Source: a virus | Virus record (IMG/VR): IMGVR_UViG_3300028844_002842 | Coordinates: 1-23,715 of that record | Length of the DNA: 23,715 bases | Direction: 5' to 3' (one strand) | Shown here: positions 4,072-23,715 of the stretch, piece by piece | How the letters are laid out: each line of letters begins with the position of its first letter | Numbering within the stretch: the stretch's first letter is position 1 | Position numbers and translations under genes: made by a program | Notes under the pieces: model-generated | What the model was told of the DNA's origin: nothing | The model's database searches: none | Seen by the model: the letters and a program-made list of their open reading frames with translations, nothing else

Positions 4072-5446
4072 ATGATATACTTAGTAACAAACAATTCAGA
4101 GAAATTTAAAGATATATGGTGTACCAATATTACATTAAGCACATCACAAAGTTTAATAGATTATTTCCAAAACAAAAAAGAGCTGGAGTTTGATACTGAA
4201 ACAACAGGGTTAGATGTACATAGTTGTAAGCTATTATCCGCACAGTTTGGAGATGAAAATAATCAATATGTAGTAGATACACAATCAGTAGATATAAAGC
4301 TCTTTAAAGAGCTCTTAGAGAGCAAGACTGTCATAATGCAAAATGCAAAGTTTGACCTTAAATTTCTTTATAAAGAAAATATATGGCCAAATGATGTATA
4401 TGATACATTCTTAGCAGAAGCTGTCCTTAATATGGGTAGATTACAAGTAAGAAAAGGATTAGATGCATTAGTATATAGATACACTCAACAGCATATGTCT
4501 AAAGAAGTACGTGGTGTAATACACAAAGAGGGACTATCTAAGAGAGTAATAGAGTATGCAGCTAAAGATGTAGCATATTTAAGCATCATTAAGCGTAAAC
4601 AGCTTGTAAAGCTTGAAGAACTTAATCTAATGTCTGCTATTAACCTTGATAATAAATTTGTTAAGGTATTAGCATATGTGGAGTATTGTGGCTTCAAACT
4701 AGATGCAGACAAGTGGAAATCTAAGATAGAAAAAGATACTGAAAGATTAACTACAGCACATAATAAATTAGATAGCTACATATTTGATAATAATATGACC
4801 AAATATATAGATGGACAATTTGATATGTTCTCTAATAAGCTTAATACTACTCTTAATTGGAGTAGTAGTAAACAAGTGATAGAATTATTCAAAGATTTAG
4901 GTATAGATACTAAGACTAAGGATAAGAAAACAGGTATGATGAAGGACTCAGTAGATGCTAAGGTATTAATATCTCAAGCAAATAAGTTTCCTATAATCAA
5001 AATGTTTACTGACTATCAACAAGCAAGTAAACTTACCTCAACATATGGAGAGAATGTGTTAAGACAAATACATCCTAATACAGGTAGAATTCATACAGAG
5101 TTTAGGCAGTTAATGGATACAGGTAGAATGTCTTGTGGTGGTACAGATAGATTAAGAGGTATTGAACTTCTTAATTTACAAAATATACCAGCAGATGAAG
5201 CTCATAGAGGTTGTTTTGTACCTGAAAAGGATAATAAAATGATTGTAGCAGATTATAGTGGCCAAGAGTCAGTAGTATTTGCTAATTTCTCTAAGGATAC
5301 TGAAATTATAAACTTTTATAAGTCAGGTATGGCTGATATGCATTCATTTATTGCACAAAAGATATATCCTGAACTTGAAGAATTAGATTTAAGTACTATT
5401 AAAAAAGAGCATAAGCAAAAAAGACAAAATGCTAAAGCAGCAGGGT
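4072..5446 (+). CDS. Family A DNA polymerase, exon 1 (3'-5' exonuclease and part of polymerase domain)
   Basis: This is the replicative polymerase, split by a group I intron. Exo I is EFDTETTGLD (Asp41, Glu43), Exo II is NAKFDLKFL (Asp95) and Exo III is YAAKDVAYL (Asp166), so the proofreading exonuclease looks intact. There is no 5'-3' exonuclease domain, as is usual for phage enzymes. The polymerase domain follows: the RQLMDTGRMS region, motif A with IVADYSGQES (Asp394), and the first half of motif B (RQNAKAAG, residues 451-458). The exon ends after the first base of codon 459. If unspliced, the frame runs 19 more codons into the intron and stops at TAA 5503-5505. Joining 5446 to 6604 gives 667 codons plus stop and restores AAGFAIQYGG. 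Confidence 0.93.
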
Positions 5447-6603
5447 TAATAGAAAATTTTACATTATTTTCTTGCTTTTGTCCTTTGACTTTATTACATT
5501 TGTAATATGGTTATAAGGATAGAAAATATAGAAGATTTAGATAGAACGGGAATCTATCTGATAAAAAATATAATTAATAATAAAGTATATATAGGTAGTA
5601 CTGGAAAGTCTTTTAAACAAAGATATACTCAGCATAAATCTAAACTTACTAAAGGAAAACATGCGACACCGCATTTACAAAATGCTTGGAATAAACATGG
5701 AGGTAAAAACTTTGAATTTAGTATAGTAGAGATATGTGATGAAGATATAATAATAAAAGAAAAAGAGTATATATCTAAATATGATGCATGTAATAGAGAT
5801 AAAGGTTATAATCATAACCCTAATCCTGATTTACCATGTTCTTTTGTAAAAGAAGTAAAAGATAAGATATCTAATACTTTAAAAGAAAGACATAGTAAAG
5901 GAGAATTAGAGCCTACTACAGGGTGTTTCCCAAAAGGGAATATACCTTGGAATAAAGGACACAAGTATGAAGATACTAGTGCTATGAAGGTACCTAAAAC
6001 TATTACAGATGATTTACAACAAGCTTGGGAAAACTCTAAAGAAAGAGGAAGAAAAAGAGCTAACGCAATAGAAGTATATAATGAAAAGAATGTACTTTTA
6101 CACACTGCTAGGTCTTTACAGGACTTAGAAGAATGGTCTATAACAGATGCTAATATATTACCTATAAAAGGTAACTACGGCAAAAAGATAGACCAGTACA
6201 GAGCGTGTAAAGCATGTAAATCAGGTAAACTTTATAAAGGATTATATTTTAAATCTGTAAAAAAGAGCCCCTCTAGCAAGTAATTGTTAGAGCAAAGAGG
6301 ATGAATTGCTGGAAAGCTAAGTAAATAACAGTTTGAGGGAGTATAAACCCCTTGTAAAACTTAACATAATAGAATTGCAACCCTTTTAAGGGCCATTGAA
6401 AAGTTAGGTGCTGTTATTTATATGCCAATCAGCAGCCAAGCCTACAGAGTAGGAAGGTTCAGAGACTACCTGAGCTATAGCGATATAGCTTAATAACAGG
6501 AAGTAGCTAACAGTAGTGTGTTAGTGAAACAGCGTCCTCCACCCTATAGTGAAATAGGGTGATGATATAGTCCATGCTTATATGAAAATATAGGAATAAC
6601 ATG
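5447..6603 (+). ncRNA. Group I intron (IA-like) with internal homing endonuclease
   Basis: The borders obey the group I rule: exon 1 ends in U (5446) and the intron ends in G (6603). The core lies after the endonuclease gene. P2 is a 9-bp hairpin (CTCTAGCAA with TTGTTAGAG, 6271-6293). P3 is GAGGATG (6297-6303) with CGTCCTC (6533-6539). P4 is TGCTG with CAGCA, next to the typical AATCAGCAGCCAAGCC stretch. A P5 arm joins AATAACAG with CTGTTATT. P6 is CCTAC-AGA-GTAGG. P7 is CAGAGACTA with ATATAGTCC. Two extra hairpins between P7 and P3' fit P7.1/P7.2 of subgroup IA. P8 is CACCCTAT with ATAGGGTG, and P9 has a GAAA loop. The guide could be GCCC (6267-6270), inside the last codons of the endonuclease, or GTCCT (5480-5484). 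The insertion is in motif B of the polymerase. Confidence 0.92.
5507..6283 (+). CDS. GIY-YIG homing endonuclease with NUMOD3-type repeats
   Basis: This intron-encoded endonuclease cuts intronless alleles of the polymerase gene and so spreads the intron. The GIY-YIG domain fills the first 90 residues: TGIYLIKNI (15-23) and KVYIGST (26-32), then a conserved Arg in KQRYTQHKSK and the Glu in KEKEYISKY. The linker carries NUMOD3-like DNA-binding motifs (KEVKDKISNTLKERHSKG and GCFPKGNIPWNKG). The C-terminal part (AIEVYNEKNVLLHTARSLQDLE) resembles a NUMOD1-type helix-turn-helix. The ATG lies one base after the stop that ends the unspliced polymerase frame, so it can be translated from precursor RNA by coupling. 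The last codons overlap a possible intron guide sequence. Confidence 0.93.
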   Translation: MVIRIENIEDLDRTGIYLIKNIINNKVYIGSTGKSFKQRYTQHKSKLTKGKHATPHLQNAWNKHGGKNFEFSIVEICDEDIIIKEKEYISKYDACNRDKGYNHNPNPDLPCSFVKEVKDKISNTLKERHSKGELEPTTGCFPKGNIPWNKGHKYEDTSAMKVPKTITDDLQQAWENSKERGRKRANAIEVYNEKNVLLHTARSLQDLEEWSITDANILPIKGNYGKKIDQYRACKACKSGKLYKGLYFKSVKKSPSSK

Positions 6604-7232
6604 TCGCCATACAGTATGGTGGAGTAGGTGCTACAATAGCAGGTAATTTAAATTTAAGTGCTGAAGAGGGAGAGGCTATCTATGATGGATACTTTAAAGC
6701 TTTCCCTGGTATTAAAAATTATTTTGCTAAGTGTAAAAATAAAGCTCTTGCTAATGGATATGTAGAACTTAATCAAGTATCTTATAGGAAGTCTTTTATT
6801 GATTTTTATGAGCAATATAAAGAATTGCAGTCTAAAGTTAATGAACCCGCATTTTGGGATGATTACAGGGCACATAAAACTAAACAATCAGATTTATTTC
6901 AATCATTCTATAAACCTACAGTACGTGAGTATTTTAAGTTTAAAGGTATGATAGAACGTAAATCTCTTAATTATCCTATACAGGGTAGCTCAGCGGAGAT
7001 AACCAAGTTTGCTGCTCTGAAATTCTTTAACTATATCACAGACTCAGGTCTTATGGGTGTTGTTAAAATATGCAATATTGTGCATGATGAAATAGTAATA
7101 GAGTGTCCTGAAGTAATAGCTAATAAAATGGCTAAATATTTACAGGAATGCATGGAAGATGCAGGTAAACCATTTTGTAAAATCATTCCGTTAAGGGCAG
7201 AGCCTAATATTTGTGAATGGTGGACCCATTAG
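6604..7232 (+). CDS. Family A DNA polymerase, exon 2 (polymerase C-terminus)
   Basis: Exon 2 continues codon 459 with TC and reads F-AIQYGGVGATIAGNL, completing motif B (Lys455 from exon 1, and Tyr-Gly after the junction), the helix that binds the incoming nucleotide. Motif C is IVHDEIVIECPE, with the metal-binding Asp-Glu. The downstream AEPNICEWW ends the fingers/palm region as in phage PolA-like enzymes. An open frame starting at an internal Met (6825) covers only part of it; the true N-terminal part is read from 6604. The spliced protein would be 667 aa, a usual size for exonuclease plus polymerase without a 5' nuclease. Confidence 0.92.
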
Positions 7233-16004: not shown

Positions 16005-16463
16005 ATGTCAAGAAAAGTAACAATTTTTTCAACACAGACTAATGAATCTCAAGTAATAACAACAGATGTTAATACTTGGGGAGAAGTGAAAGATTTAGCT
16101 ACAAATGTAAGTACATCAGGTATGAAAGCTGTAGTTAGAGAAAATAGAACAACTTTAGAAAGTGATGGTGCACAACTTCCACAAGGAGATGCAACAGTAT
16201 TTCTTTATCCTACTAAAGTTAAATCAGGTGTATCTAAGGGTACAAGAGCTAAAGCAAGTGCTAAAGGTTCTGAAGGTGCTAAAGAAGTAATGCAGAATTT
16301 AACTCCAGATGTATCTGTTAGAGATTTACTATATTCTCTTAAAGAAAAGTTTGATGATGCATTTAATGGTGTTATCCAAGATATAGACGAGGGTAGAATC
16401 TCTGTTAATACGGATGCATTAGCTGCACAAGCTAGAGAACTTGAAGAAGAATTAGGAATGTAA
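16005..16463 (+). CDS. Ubiquitin-like (beta-grasp) protein, 152 aa
   Basis: Residues 1-75 follow the beta-grasp order of ubiquitin: strand KVTIFST (4-10), strand SQVITT (15-20), helix TWGEVKDLATN (24-34), strand MKAVVRENRTTLE (40-52), then GAQLPQGDATVFLYPTKVKSG (55-75), which lines up with ubiquitin 'LEDGRTLSDYNI... LHLVLRLRGG'. Unlike ubiquitin it does not end in Gly-Gly. A Lys/Ser/Gly/Ala linker (75-92) and a helical, acidic C-terminal domain (100-152) follow. Glycines at 75 and 79 (KSGVSKG) are candidate ends after cleavage by the JAMM protein at 17474. It could be the tag of the system. Identification rests on fold pattern plus context with E2, JAMM and E1. Confidence 0.75.
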   Translation: MSRKVTIFSTQTNESQVITTDVNTWGEVKDLATNVSTSGMKAVVRENRTTLESDGAQLPQGDATVFLYPTKVKSGVSKGTRAKASAKGSEGAKEVMQNLTPDVSVRDLLYSLKEKFDDAFNGVIQDIDEGRISVNTDALAAQARELEEELGM

Positions 16464-16467
16464 TAAC

Positions 16468-16493
16468 AAGGGGGGCCTTGTGCTCCCCTTTAT
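16468..16493 (+). terminator. Terminator/attenuator between Ubl and E2 genes
   Basis: AAGGGGGG (16468-16475) pairs with CTCCCCTT (16483-16490; one G·U) around a 7-nt loop, followed only by TATTTAAATT. The short T-run suggests partial termination, giving more Ubl message than enzyme message. Confidence 0.65.
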
Positions 16494-16500
16494 TTAAATT

Positions 16501-17484
16501 ATGGAAGAAATATTAATAGAACAAAAGATTGATTCTTATATCCCTTCTATAGCATCAAGTAATCCCATTATTAAAAAAATGTGGGAGTCTTTAGAAGCTA
16601 TTTATTCTGGTAATTGGGATATGCAAAATGACTTAAGAAGTGAATTATTAAATCATTATATAGTTTATATAAAATTTCCTGAAATAGAAATATCTAATAA
16701 AAATGATAATAAACATATTATAAAAGATTTATATGTTAAGATAGGATATAAAATTAATGGCTCTAATGTTAAATTAACAGAATTACAAGGATATAGAGGA
16801 AAGATGACGTATGAAGAGCATTCTAGTAAATATTCTCATTCTCATTTACCTTCTAGTGGTCTTAATAGTTTTGCACCTTTTTGTTTAGGATCATCTGAAA
16901 TGGCTGATTTAAAAAATGATTGGGTTATTACGGAAGATGATTTTGACCAAATATTATTTGAATTATTCTTATATCAATTAGATGCTTATGTAAGATGGGA
17001 ATCTCTTGATGGTGGCCCTTATTTTAGAATGACTGAAATAAGAATACAAAATTCTGCACGTGTTTCTAAGGAAGAAATGACATTTGCTTTTAAAAAAGTT
17101 ATTTCTAATAAAATAAAAATACCTTGTAAATGGGATAATAGCTCTCTTAGGTTTGTTTTTGAAAATGACATTATTATAAATATTTTAACAACTAATGAAA
17201 TAGGTCCTATGACTTATACAACACCTTCTGGAATAGAAGTTCCTCCTGATAGTAGTGCTAGAGTTATGTTGAATAATATTAAGAGTCTTAATAATGATTA
17301 TCAAACTAACTCTAAATTAATGTTTAGGGGAGAAAAAGTAATTAAAATAATTAATAATGATGGATTAAAAGTGGAAGATGATGATAATTTAATAATGAGA
17401 ACTAAAGCTGGAATAGCAGAATATGTAAATAAAGTATTAACTAATAGAATGAATTTATATTTTATAAAAAATTATGGAAAATAA
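16501..17484 (+). CDS. E2-like ubiquitin-conjugating enzyme, 327 aa
   Basis: This is a probable carrier that takes the tag from the E1 and transfers it to targets. Residues 50-135 form an E2/RWD-like alpha-beta core: strands HYIVYIKFPEI and YVKIGYKI, then GYRGKMTYEEH and the key block YSHSHLPSSGLNSFAPFCLG. The His113/His115...Cys128-Leu-Gly order matches prokaryotic E2-like proteins, where the Cys before Leu-Gly forms the thioester. A long C-terminal part (140-327) without a recognised motif is not usual for E2 and may bind targets or partners. It overlaps the JAMM gene by 11 bases. No catalytic Asn is evident. Confidence 0.7.
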   Translation: MEEILIEQKIDSYIPSIASSNPIIKKMWESLEAIYSGNWDMQNDLRSELLNHYIVYIKFPEIEISNKNDNKHIIKDLYVKIGYKINGSNVKLTELQGYRGKMTYEEHSSKYSHSHLPSSGLNSFAPFCLGSSEMADLKNDWVITEDDFDQILFELFLYQLDAYVRWESLDGGPYFRMTEIRIQNSARVSKEEMTFAFKKVISNKIKIPCKWDNSSLRFVFENDIIINILTTNEIGPMTYTTPSGIEVPPDSSARVMLNNIKSLNNDYQTNSKLMFRGEKVIKIINNDGLKVEDDDNLIMRTKAGIAEYVNKVLTNRMNLYFIKNYGK

Positions 17485-18658
17485 AGAAAAAATAGATTAC
17501 CCTATTATTATATCTAATATTAGGGGTGTGCTTAATATAAATAAGCAAATAGAAGAACAAATAGATTTATTACATACAGTTGTAGGTGCTAAAGAGTGGT
17601 CTGGAGTACTACTATATACTGTTAATGGAGATATTGATAGTAATGTAGATGTAGAAGTACAAGGATTGTTTCCTATGGATATAGGGACTAGTGCTTATAC
17701 AGAATATGAATTTGATGAGAATATTATGGATATGTATGATATGTACCCTGATGCTCTTGATAAACAATGGAGATTAGGTCATATTCACACACATCATAAT
17801 ATGAAAGCTTATTTTAGTGGTACAGATAATCAAGAATTAAAGGATAATACTCCTAATCATGCTTATTATTTATCTCTTATTGTAAACTTTGATAAATCTT
17901 ATTGTGCAAGATTGTGCTTTATGGGTACTAGAGAAGTTAAAGGAACTAGTTCTGTATCTGTTAAAGGTATAAAACTATCTTCTCATCTCTGTAACAATAA
18001 TAAAGTAGATAGAGAAGAAGATGTAATATATGCTATTGACCTTGATATTGTTATGCCTAAGAAAGATTCAAATATTACTTTATTAGGAGAGATTAATAAA
18101 ATTCAAGATAAGAATGAACTTAATTCTAAACTAAAGTATGAATCAAAATATGTATGGGGAAATGATTGGAATAAATCTTCTAATTCTATAGGTTTTCGTA
18201 AGCAACATGATATTCCCCCATTAAGAACATATGATAAAAATGTACAGCTTACTTTACAAGACGGCATTAATGATGCTGAAGGTATAGAAGCTATTCCTGA
18301 AGAAATGATGGTAAGATTTATGATTGATCTTATTACTTTAGGTACTTATAAATTAGACCCCTCTTTATCTATGTCAGAGAATGGAGTTATTGCTTATTCT
18401 AAAAATATAGGTAAACTAACTATGGAAGATGTAGAAGAGTATTTTGTTAGTACAATGCATAATGACCTTTTATATATACCTATGCTAGAAGATCCTAATA
18501 AAGCATGTGCTTTATTTAGTCAAGCTATAGAATGGTTAGGAGATTCTAAAAGTATGAATGAATATTTATTATATGAATTTATTTCGGGATTACAACAAGA
18601 TGCTATAGAAGAAGCTATGGATACTGAAAGTTATAATAAATCTTTTGGAGTATTATAA
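17474..18658 (+). CDS. JAMM/MPN (Mov34-family) isopeptidase, 394 aa
   Basis: This zinc protease should mature or remove the ubiquitin-like tag. The JAMM active site is complete: Glu41 in KEWSGVLL, then His105-x-His107, seven residues, Ser115-x2-Asp118 (HIHTHHNMKAYFSGTD). The Pro that often follows HxH is His108. Residues 1-155 form the MPN domain. The C-terminal 240 residues are long and helical, with no recognised family, and could be a substrate- or E1/E2-binding domain. The gene starts inside the end of the E2 gene and its stop shares a base with the E1 ATG (TAATG), which binds the three enzymes into one coupled unit. Confidence 0.92.
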   Translation: MENKEKIDYPIIISNIRGVLNINKQIEEQIDLLHTVVGAKEWSGVLLYTVNGDIDSNVDVEVQGLFPMDIGTSAYTEYEFDENIMDMYDMYPDALDKQWRLGHIHTHHNMKAYFSGTDNQELKDNTPNHAYYLSLIVNFDKSYCARLCFMGTREVKGTSSVSVKGIKLSSHLCNNNKVDREEDVIYAIDLDIVMPKKDSNITLLGEINKIQDKNELNSKLKYESKYVWGNDWNKSSNSIGFRKQHDIPPLRTYDKNVQLTLQDGINDAEGIEAIPEEMMVRFMIDLITLGTYKLDPSLSMSENGVIAYSKNIGKLTMEDVEEYFVSTMHNDLLYIPMLEDPNKACALFSQAIEWLGDSKSMNEYLLYEFISGLQQDAIEEAMDTESYNKSFGVL

Positions 18659-19338
18659 TGGAAGCTATAGATATGAAAGGTAAGCCTACTAGTGTTAGAT
18701 TTTCTGACGCTAGTTGGTTTTCCCCTAGAATAGAAATTCTAGTTGGGGGAGCAGGTGGTATAGGAAGTTGGTTAACCTTCTTCTTAGCAAGGCAGGAGTG
18801 TGATATTTATCTCTATGATGATGATATAATTGATGAAACTAATTTAGGCGGTCAATTATATGCTAAATCATTTGTAGGTGTTAATAAAGCAACTGCTATG
18901 AATACAATATCATCAGGATATTGCGATAATAGTATTACATCTATGGGTAGATATGAAAAAGATTCTTTTTCTATGCCTATAATGTTTTCTGCTTTTGATA
19001 ATATGACTGCTAGAAAAACTATGTTTAATCGTTGGAAGGAATGTGAAGATAGAAAAATCTTTATTGATGGTAGGATGCTAGCTGAGAGTGCTCAGATAAT
19101 ATCTGTTACTAAAGATAATGAAGATAAGTATGAAGAAGAATTGTTTGAAGACTCAGAAGTTGAAGATCAACCTTGTTCAATGAAAGCTACATCTCATTGT
19201 GGTGCTATTACTGCTGGTTATATGGTTGCAACATTTAATAACTATATGGCTAATAGTATATCAGAGCATGCATTTAGGGAAGTACCTTTTAAAACTACTA
19301 TTGAATTACCTACTTTAACTCAAGATGTGATATTATGA
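18658..19338 (+). CDS. E1-like ThiF/MoeB-family adenylyltransferase, 226 aa
   Basis: This is the ATP-dependent activator of the tag. The Rossmann-type fold is clear: VGGAGGIGSW (29-38, GxGGxGS), acidic strand end YLYDDDIIDETNLGGQL (51-67, the usual 'D.D.v..sNL.RQ'), Lys77, and AFDNMTARK (112-120) as in 'DN...R'. The Arg of NLxRQ is replaced by Gly65, which is unusual. Cys173 and Cys181 (QPCSMKATSHCGAITAG) are candidates for the thioester Cys. At 226 aa it lacks a separate Cys domain and a ubiquitin-fold domain, like MoeB/ThiF. The stop overlaps the next ATG by four bases (ATGA). Confidence 0.9.
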   Translation: MEAIDMKGKPTSVRFSDASWFSPRIEILVGGAGGIGSWLTFFLARQECDIYLYDDDIIDETNLGGQLYAKSFVGVNKATAMNTISSGYCDNSITSMGRYEKDSFSMPIMFSAFDNMTARKTMFNRWKECEDRKIFIDGRMLAESAQIISVTKDNEDKYEEELFEDSEVEDQPCSMKATSHCGAITAGYMVATFNNYMANSISEHAFREVPFKTTIELPTLTQDVIL

Positions 19339-22397: not shown

Positions 22398-22533
22398 ATC
22401 AGTTGAATATAATGGGGACCTTTATAAGGTCCTCATTTTATTTGGCGTAAAAGAAGAAAAACTATTAATCTCTAAAAATGGAAAAACTAAGAAATTTAGT
22501 ATTAATATATCTGATGCTAAAAAATTAAAATAA
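22375..22533 (+). CDS. Small basic protein overlapping preceding gene, 52 aa
   Basis: The frame starts at ATG 22375 inside the end of the previous gene and reads MILKKIYKSVEYNGDLYKVL... ISDAKKLK. The beta-hairpin-like pattern and Lys-rich end look like a real protein. The next ATG is one base after its stop. An inverted repeat (22414-22434) lies inside it, so the region may act as RNA as well. Family unknown. Confidence 0.6.
   Translation: MILKKIYKSVEYNGDLYKVLILFGVKEEKLLISKNGKTKKFSINISDAKKLK
22414..22440 (+). terminator. Possible terminator hairpin inside the 52-aa gene
   Basis: GGGGACCTT (22414-22422) pairs with AAGGTCCTC (22426-22434) with a three-base loop, followed by ATTTTATTT. It could end the 21795 message, but it also encodes part of the 52-aa protein, and the T-run is broken. 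Confidence 0.4.
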
Positions 22534-22534
22534 A

Positions 22535-22711
22535 ATGGGAACAAATAATGAAGAAGAAGAACAATTATACACCTTTGGGATGGATGATTTACATTTAACT
22601 AAAGAACAAAAAGATGAGTTAACTTCTAACTATGTTAATATTATTGATAGTAACGGTAACTACTTAGGTAACGTAGAAATATATATAATTTCACCTTATG
22701 AAGAAGAATAA
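22535..22711 (+). CDS. Small acidic hypothetical protein, 58 aa
   Basis: The frame reads MGTNNEEEEQLYTFGMDDLH... NVEIYIISPYEEE. It starts one base after the 52-aa gene and ends 14 bases inside the secreted-protein gene. It has no cysteine or membrane segment. It is supported by tight packing between neighbours and the A-rich start context. Confidence 0.6.
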   Translation: MGTNNEEEEQLYTFGMDDLHLTKEQKDELTSNYVNIIDSNGNYLGNVEIYIISPYEEE

Positions 22712-23708
22712 ATGTTACAATAATGTTACAATAATGTTGTTTTTACTAATAAATGTTACGATTAACGCTCAATTTTCGTTAGTAGAAGAATTTGACTCCT
22801 TTGGAGGAGTAGGGGAATGGACTATTGATAATGGTGGTGGTGTGCAAAACTATGGTGGAGCAGAAAACTACTTATCATTTAATCTTGGGTCAACCCCCTA
22901 CTTAAATTCATCTACTATTACAGCAACAAGCCCAGTACATGATTTAAGTACTATAGATGGGAATGCTACTGTTAGTTTTCCTATAAGTGGGATTATTGAA
23001 AATAATTGGGATTATATGTATTTTGATTATTTTGATGGTGGAGCTTGGGTAAATGATACAGTACTTACAGGATTACAAACAACTACTATTGTTAGAACAA
23101 CAATACCAAATACAGCTACACAATTTAGATTTAGGCTTGTAACAGACCCTACATTTGTTATTTGGTATCGTTCTAATCTTAGTTCTTGGAGTTATAATCA
23201 GGTAGGACCATTTCAGACCCCTGTTGATATTTCTAATTCTTATGTTGGAGGAAGTCCTAGACAAGTTTTAATTTATTACTATGATATATCTCAATTTACT
23301 ATTAAGGGCACACTAATACTGCCAATAGAACTTATTAGTTTTAATTGTGATGTAGTAGATAATAATATATTATTAAGTTGGCTAACGGCTACAGAGATTA
23401 ACAATGACTATTTTATTATAGAACACTCAATAGATGGCTTTAATTGGTATAGTTTACAAACAATACAAGCAGCAGGCAACTCTAACAACACTTTAGAGTA
23501 CTCATTTATGCATTACTTTCCTGATAGTAAAATAAATTATTATCGTCTAAGGCAGATTGATTTTGATGGTAACAGTGAAGTGTTTAAGGCTGTAGTTTGT
23601 AGTAAGGAAATAGAGATAGAAGAAGTAAAAGAGGTTATATACTATAATGTATTAGGTCAGATTGTTGATGAAAATTATAAAGGAATAATAATAAAACAAA
23701 TAAGATGA
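22698..23708 (+). CDS. Secreted surface protein with T9SS-type C-terminal domains, 336 aa
   Basis: The N-terminus is a signal peptide (MKKNKCYNNVTIMLFLLINV, predicted cut after NAQ25). The middle (26-200) is beta-rich and aromatic (EWTIDNGGG; WDYMYFDYFDGG), like a carbohydrate-binding or jelly-roll domain. Residues 208-300 (LPIELISFNC... LSWLTATEINNDYFIIEHS... YYRLRQIDFDGNSE) match the domain that usually precedes type IX secretion sorting signals in flavobacterial adhesins. The end (IYYNVLGQIVDENYKGIIIK) resembles the last half of a type A sorting domain, with the PNP-containing first half missing. It could be a phage-encoded cell-surface factor, host-derived by transfer, or a receptor decoy. 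The sequence after the stop suggests another gene (ATG 23705) leaving the window. Confidence 0.85.
   Translation: MKKNKCYNNVTIMLFLLINVTINAQFSLVEEFDSFGGVGEWTIDNGGGVQNYGGAENYLSFNLGSTPYLNSSTITATSPVHDLSTIDGNATVSFPISGIIENNWDYMYFDYFDGGAWVNDTVLTGLQTTTIVRTTIPNTATQFRFRLVTDPTFVIWYRSNLSSWSYNQVGPFQTPVDISNSYVGGSPRQVLIYYYDISQFTIKGTLILPIELISFNCDVVDNNILLSWLTATEINNDYFIIEHSIDGFNWYSLQTIQAAGNSNNTLEYSFMHYFPDSKINYYRLRQIDFDGNSEVFKAVVCSKEIEIEEVKEVIYYNVLGQIVDENYKGIIIKQIR
22712..22738 (+). repeat. Short tandem repeat at signal-peptide start
   Basis: ATGTTACAATA occurs twice in a row (22712-22722, 22723-22733), with a third partial copy (ATGTT, 22734-22738). It encodes part of the signal peptide and overlaps the end of the 58-aa gene. 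Slippage here would shift the reading frame. Confidence 0.7.
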
Positions 23709-23715
23709 AGATATG
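23705..23715 (+). CDS. Start of a further gene leaving the window
   Basis: ATGAAGATATG begins with an ATG that overlaps the TGA of the preceding gene, the coupling used repeatedly here. Only three codons are visible, so nothing can be said of the product. Confidence 0.3.

Follow-up and report, generated by a model that had tools for sequence, protein, structure and literature searches.

The window, i.e. the whole stretch of DNA analysed here (23,715 nucleotides), is an entire 23.7-kb IMG/VR virus record. Its last complete gene codes for a phage protein of 336 aa that is probably secreted, and the features of this gene and its surroundings are listed in the table. The window stops 7 bases past the stop codon, while the gene itself is intact.

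Table. Features at and around the gene for the secreted phage protein (window positions)
Feature	Position	Strand	Basis
Intrinsic-terminator-like hairpin upstream of the gene	22411..22437	+	2 found vs 0.5 expected
58-aa ORF upstream, stop overlapping the start of the 336-aa gene	22535..22711	+	from sequence
Complete gene, phage secreted protein, 336 aa, ATG to TGA	22698..23708	+	ORF, shuffle test, relatives L002 and L003
Signal peptide, residues 1–24, predicted cleavage between INA and Q	22698..22769	+	sequence, Q25 conservation, heuristic
N-terminal β-rich domain, residues 25–207	22770..23318	+	distant likeness to MAM/InhA-MAM jelly-roll domains of bacterial T9SS cargo
Mosaic patch, residues 150–197	23145..23288	+	92% nt identity to L003
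LPIEL...YYRLxQxDxDG cargo domain, residues 208–301, fibronectin-III-like (FN3-like) by inspection	23319..23600	+	profile scans
Short sorting tail remnant, residues 315–333, motifs B (LGQ) and D (YKGII)	23640..23696	+	profile match
Tail end, expected YxDGxxxK (motif E) strand missing	23697..23705	+	same in L002 and L003
Next ORF start (MKI..., ATGA overlap), truncated where the window ends	23705..23715	+	sequence

The length of the ORF is beyond chance: when the window was shuffled 200 times, the ATG ORFs reached 164 aa at most. Two full-length relatives showed the same layout: L002 (79% identity, on a 22.5-kb contig) and L003 (58% identity, on the 241-kb contig G002, which carries a terminase large subunit). 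The whole-gene dN/dS was 0.30 with respect to L002 and 0.33 with respect to L003, which indicates conserved coding. L003 also has the identical ATGA overlap, followed by a 109-aa protein with a signal peptide.

The window is a phage replication module with DNA polymerase, helicases, Sak4, SSB, primase and exonuclease genes. The exonuclease is akin to those of crAss-like and Flavobacterium phages (26–30% identity in the crAss-like matches listed). The contig of L002 is collinear with the window at ~90% nucleotide identity over 9 kb. Downstream, it continues with a gene for a small secreted protein of basic character, an ORF resembling uracil-DNA glycosylase (named by eye), giant ORFs on the opposite strand and phage-type genes. 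The small secreted protein is very basic (~58 aa when mature) and adjoins the cargo gene in both relatives (L002 10967–11197 and L003 9324–9560); it is 78% identical in these two unrelated phages, and no match to it was found in the phage collection. Another secreted protein of ~110 aa with a hydrophobic C-terminal half (L003 10969–11298 and L012 6149–6505) lies near cargo genes in the 241-kb phage and in a 635-kb phage, with 29–33% identity.

Two further gene groups of the window were recorded. The DNA polymerase gene is split into an N-terminal part (4072–5505), a GIY-YIG endonuclease ORF (5507–6283) and a polymerase-like C-terminal ORF (6825–7232, by eye). This arrangement at 4072–7232 suggests an intron or a homing insertion; an Rfam search gave no matches, meaning that no intron was found at Rfam thresholds in the split region. 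A run of genes at 16005–19338 codes for a JAB-like protease (sub-threshold), a protein similar to ThiF/E1 (PF00899, 5e-11) and two neighbours with no assignment; it is reminiscent of a set for ubiquitin-like conjugation, here in a phage.

The signal peptide (MKKNKCYNNVTIMLFLLINVTINA, followed by Q) was identified by eye and with a simple heuristic, by which it corresponds to the N-terminal Sec signal peptide of T9SS type A cargo. Q25, directly after the cleavage site, was nearly invariant across 45 otherwise diverse relatives, and the N-terminus was hydrophobic in 73 of 74 complete relatives. The signal peptide named in the original prediction was supported. A perfect 11-bp tandem repeat (2.5 copies, window 22711–22738) lies in the start of its coding sequence. 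If the copy number changed, the first ATG would no longer be in frame; a later in-frame ATG exists.

The N-terminal domain is weakly similar to domains of bacterial cargo bearing the MAM or immune inhibitor A-like MAM domain (PF00629, PF20773). Its bacterial relatives (L009–L011) included secreted peptidases with MAM-type domains, and the two that were scanned (L009 and L010) both carried PF20773. In contrast, a Pfam search of the window protein gave no match above threshold, MAM and InhA-like MAM included, and the window protein has an extra loop of ~35 residues. The dN/dS of the N-terminal domain was 0.26, indicating constraint. The domain was also found in L131, L020, L028 and L076.

The mosaic patch was 92% identical to L003 at the nucleotide level, compared to about 51–63% in the rest of the gene. 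Within the patch, the window was nearer to L003 than to L002 (87%), and elsewhere the opposite was found. Part of the patch is an insert that other relatives of the N-terminal domain lack, and the loop was found in no other viral contig. The simplest reading would be a recent exchange between unrelated phages sharing a host.

Next comes the LPIEL...YYRLxQxDxDG domain of a family of short-tailed phage proteins. The same domain was encoded by hundreds of viral contigs (IMG/VR) and by 115 of 247 sampled Bacteroidota genomes, which shows that it is real. Its identification as a T9SS-associated cargo domain, originally proposed from LPIELISF and YYRLRQIDFDG, was supported. The dN/dS indicated that this FN3-like domain is under constraint. 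Four uncultured huge phages (462–642 kb) also carry the domain, and normal type A signals were above the cut-off in five of the seven huge-phage records examined. No Pfam, NCBIfam or PHROGs family matched any part of the window protein, and no usable match among solved structures was obtained by sequence, be it with the whole protein, the N-terminal domain or the C-terminal domain. The only AlphaFold model (from a 3-sequence alignment) had a mean pLDDT of 53 and does not allow a safe fold claim. Foldseek matches of this model to glycoside hydrolases were discarded because the model was too poor (query-normalised TM-scores of 0.21–0.27 in the matches listed).

Ig-like domains are common on phage virions, and this counts for a reading of the protein as a virion component that decorates the tail or head and has a domain of the Ig/FN3 type. 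We consider this reading improbable. The signal peptide is conserved family-wide, the gene adjoins recombination genes and not structural ones, and the cargo domain is the one known from proteins secreted by the T9SS.

The search for the family in other phages, as put forward in the original prediction, gave many positive results. A scan with the cargo domain and tail found 292 viral contigs, and a scan with the cargo domain alone found 347; the best 80 were kept in each case. The first count of short tails was biased, as the query contained the tail, and was redone with a query limited to the cargo domain and so neutral as to the tail. The tail lengths were bimodal: 63 of 72 distinct tails comprised 42–59 aa and 9 of 72 comprised 81–101 aa, counted from the YYRL motif. 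When all viral loci fetched were included (a set that takes in the tail-biased first search), 109 of 121 distinct proteins had tails of 32–51 aa and 12 had tails of 72–92 aa, measured from where the domain profile ends. In bacteria, the same cargo domain was followed by 72–98 aa at all 27 measurable loci of the top 30.

The short tails aligned nearly without gaps (xxxKxxNxLGQEVxxxYxGxxIxxYxDGxxxKxxxx), and the consensus NxLGQEV...KGxxI...YxDGxxxK corresponds to motifs B, D and E. A profile of 36 positions was built from them, and all 96 of its distinct matches lay at the protein C-terminus. The profile scored 47–67 bits in 21 of 29 viral records, including some that were not used for building it (G269, G270, G274, G275 and the G002 protein), and 34–59 bits in further confirmed viral loci. 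With a narrower, tail-only pattern, 19 of 80 loci in viral contigs were confirmed. A terminase profile matched in 18 of the 29 viral records; IMG/VR contigs can be misassigned. The window protein is a member of a large and little-noticed family of cargo proteins in phages, which have a signal peptide, a variable β-rich N-terminal domain, the LPIEL/YYRL domain as a fixed part and a short tail. No description of this short-tail family in phages was found in the open-licence PMC papers searched.

At least four T9SS-type proteins are encoded on the 241-kb contig G002: one has a CUB domain and a normal type A signal, one has a type B signal, one is a secreted protein of 507 aa with a short tail, and another is the relative of the window protein. 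The type B sorting domain (TIGR04131, 58 bits) lies at L003 15624–16199. In the 507-aa protein, the short tail is complete and the cargo domain is absent, which fits a portable tag.

Short tails were rare in bacteria. Across the phylum Bacteroidota, the profile, which was built from phages, scored ≤25 bits, with 14 of 247 genomes found at E 0.01 in a search that caps the number of candidates scored in each genome; at E 0.001, it was 3 of 395 sampled genomes. Normal signals (TIGR04183 / PF18962) were found in 78 of 99 such Bacteroidota genomes. We had regarded the short tail as virus-specific and dropped this idea after denser sampling of the order of one positive genome, where the tail was present in 9 of 299 genomes with up to 39 bits. 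The proteins inspected in this order had the tail at the C-terminus; most had a signal peptide and none had the cargo domain. The neighbours of the few bacterial loci that were read appeared chromosomal. From the rarity of profile matches in bacteria and their abundance in phages, we conclude that the short tail is a signal of Bacteroidota which few bacteria but many phages carry, and that its pairing with the cargo domain is seen only in phages: no bacterial protein with both was found in the bacterial loci searched.

Some of the bacterial secreted proteins with a short tail and no cargo domain (L199 and L311–L321) looked like GH16-type enzymes or esterases by eye. We read this group as a putative class of short T9SS-type signals in one Bacteroidota order.

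These results also bear on the origin of the gene. The cargo domain is common in Bacteroidota, as would be expected if a host gene had recently been captured or if the region were host chromosome at a prophage border. This is barely conceivable, given the polymerase, helicases, Sak4, primase and exonuclease in the window, the collinear L002 contig that goes on with phage-type genes, and the G+C content of the gene, which is near that of the rest (30.8% and 29.2%). The phage flanks and the relatives on two other phage contigs agree with the original prediction of a phage gene and not with a prophage border, and the relatives refute the reading as a host gene. Recent capture from the host, which had been suggested as well, was not supported because the pairing of cargo domain and short tail was found only in phages; in bacteria, the cargo domain precedes a long signal.

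The tail of the window protein itself comprises 35 residues. It matched the short-tail profile derived from other phages with 24 bits at positions 5–23 of 36, i.e. motifs B and D are present and motif E (YxDGxxxK) is missing at the end. No match of the tail to TIGR04183, PF18962 or any other Pfam, NCBIfam or PHROGs family was found, while L003:577–2172, the positive control for TIGR04183 / PF18962, was above the cut-off. The original prediction had regarded the sorting domain as only its last half. The sorting part is indeed incomplete, and the usual phage form is a compacted second half; the exact extent differs, as the window protein has lost the last strand as well. Overall, the original prediction held as an observation, and its interpretation was supported in part.

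L002 also lacks motif E and ends at the stop point of the window protein. L003 lacks motifs D and E and ends earlier. The usual tail of the family is ~12 residues longer, and a full short tail might have been cut by a frameshift or an assembly error. This is very improbable and largely refuted by L002, an independent contig that stops at the same place, with L003 ending earlier still. L131, a relative in the N-terminal domain, keeps a longer tail, which is consistent with tail loss in the lineage of the window. The tail dN/dS was 0.40 with respect to L002 (36 codons only) and thus above the rest of the gene; at this value, the tail remnant may still be used.

The window protein shares the signal peptide, the LPIEL/YYRL domain before the tail and second-half sorting motifs with T9SS type A cargo (TIGR04183 / PF18962). 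It differs in being unmatched by these models, in its tail of ~35 aa compared to about 72–98 aa, and in the missing last strand. Short T9SS signals of 43–55 aa, which retain B, D and E but not the intervening strands, were described in Prevotella intermedia (PMC11969387). They support cleavage and glycosylation and were modelled to bind PorV like long ones, and P. intermedia was called the only species reported with both short and long C-terminal domains (CTDs) (PMC11969387). The phage family has a similarly compact C-terminal signal with B, D and E in a similar length class. Three landmarks are found in the phage tails (the G in NxLGQ, the G in KGxxI and the K after DG), with the match to P. 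intermedia made by reading the text of the paper. At family level, the motifs agree with the published description of the 43–55 aa CTDs. However, the phage form is joined to an FN3-like domain, and the window protein lacks E.

T9SS cargo of phages was reported in 2020, and superinfection exclusion was suggested for the Cryophage cargo (PMC7468147). ORFs with T9SS domains were also found near crAss-BACON ORFs in gut phages (PMC6949934). Both sets of proteins carry T9SS sorting domains and, like the window protein, are encoded by Bacteroidota phages. The Cryophage cargo was described as having the normal type A domain; the type A model did not recognise those short-tail proteins that were tested, and the family is present in many more contigs.

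The end of the signal matters in Porphyromonas gingivalis. RgpB minus two C-terminal residues was trapped in the periplasm (PMC11285876), and the last 22 residues of HBP35 were needed (quoted in PMC11969387). As motif E is absent and the final residues are required in P. gingivalis, T9SS routing of the window protein is doubtful, and Sec export is likely. A shortened tail that still works would be the alternative, if PorV needs little beyond B and D; the protein would then be displayed on the surface by the T9SS, e.g. for receptor masking or phage exclusion. The truncation point common to two phages differing by 20%, the retained motifs B and D, the constrained FN3-like domain and the role proposed for the Cryophage cargo (PMC7468147) argue for this. 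The loss of motif D as well in L003, the higher dN/dS of the tail and the need for the last strand in P. gingivalis (PMC11285876; HBP35 in PMC11969387) argue against it, and we consider a working tail unlikely, though a serious candidate.

The best explanation as a whole combines host Sec export, T9SS use in the family, weakened routing here through the loss of motif E, and binding to the envelope or surface; we give it about an even chance of being right. The window protein would use the Sec system of the host for its export during infection. Family members with the short tail (B, D and E) would probably be carried on to the cell surface by the type IX system of the host. In the lineage of the window, the motif-E strand is gone, and this step has probably been weakened or lost, so that surface display appears somewhat less probable than its absence. 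The site of action of the protein may then be the periplasm or the outer membrane; alternatively, the protein may reach the outside only at lysis. Its working part is likely the N-terminal domain, with a loop near-identical to that in an unrelated large phage, and most plausibly it would bind an envelope or surface ligand. T9SS sorting in the window phage would presuppose a host with a T9SS.

For the family, we tentatively propose, at slightly less than even confidence, that Bacteroidota phages share a customised compact T9SS address tag on an FN3-like stem, as a display platform for swapped binding domains. Some lineages, including that of the window, would have become detached from the T9SS secondarily by the loss of the last strand, with the binding domain kept. 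The results suggest that many Bacteroidota phages may use the type IX export route of their hosts during infection, via a compact tag missed by standard models. This opens the way to direct tests of how much of the sorting signal is required and of what phages place at the host surface or beneath it. For work on PorV recognition beyond Prevotella, the compact tag would also offer a natural minimal signal.
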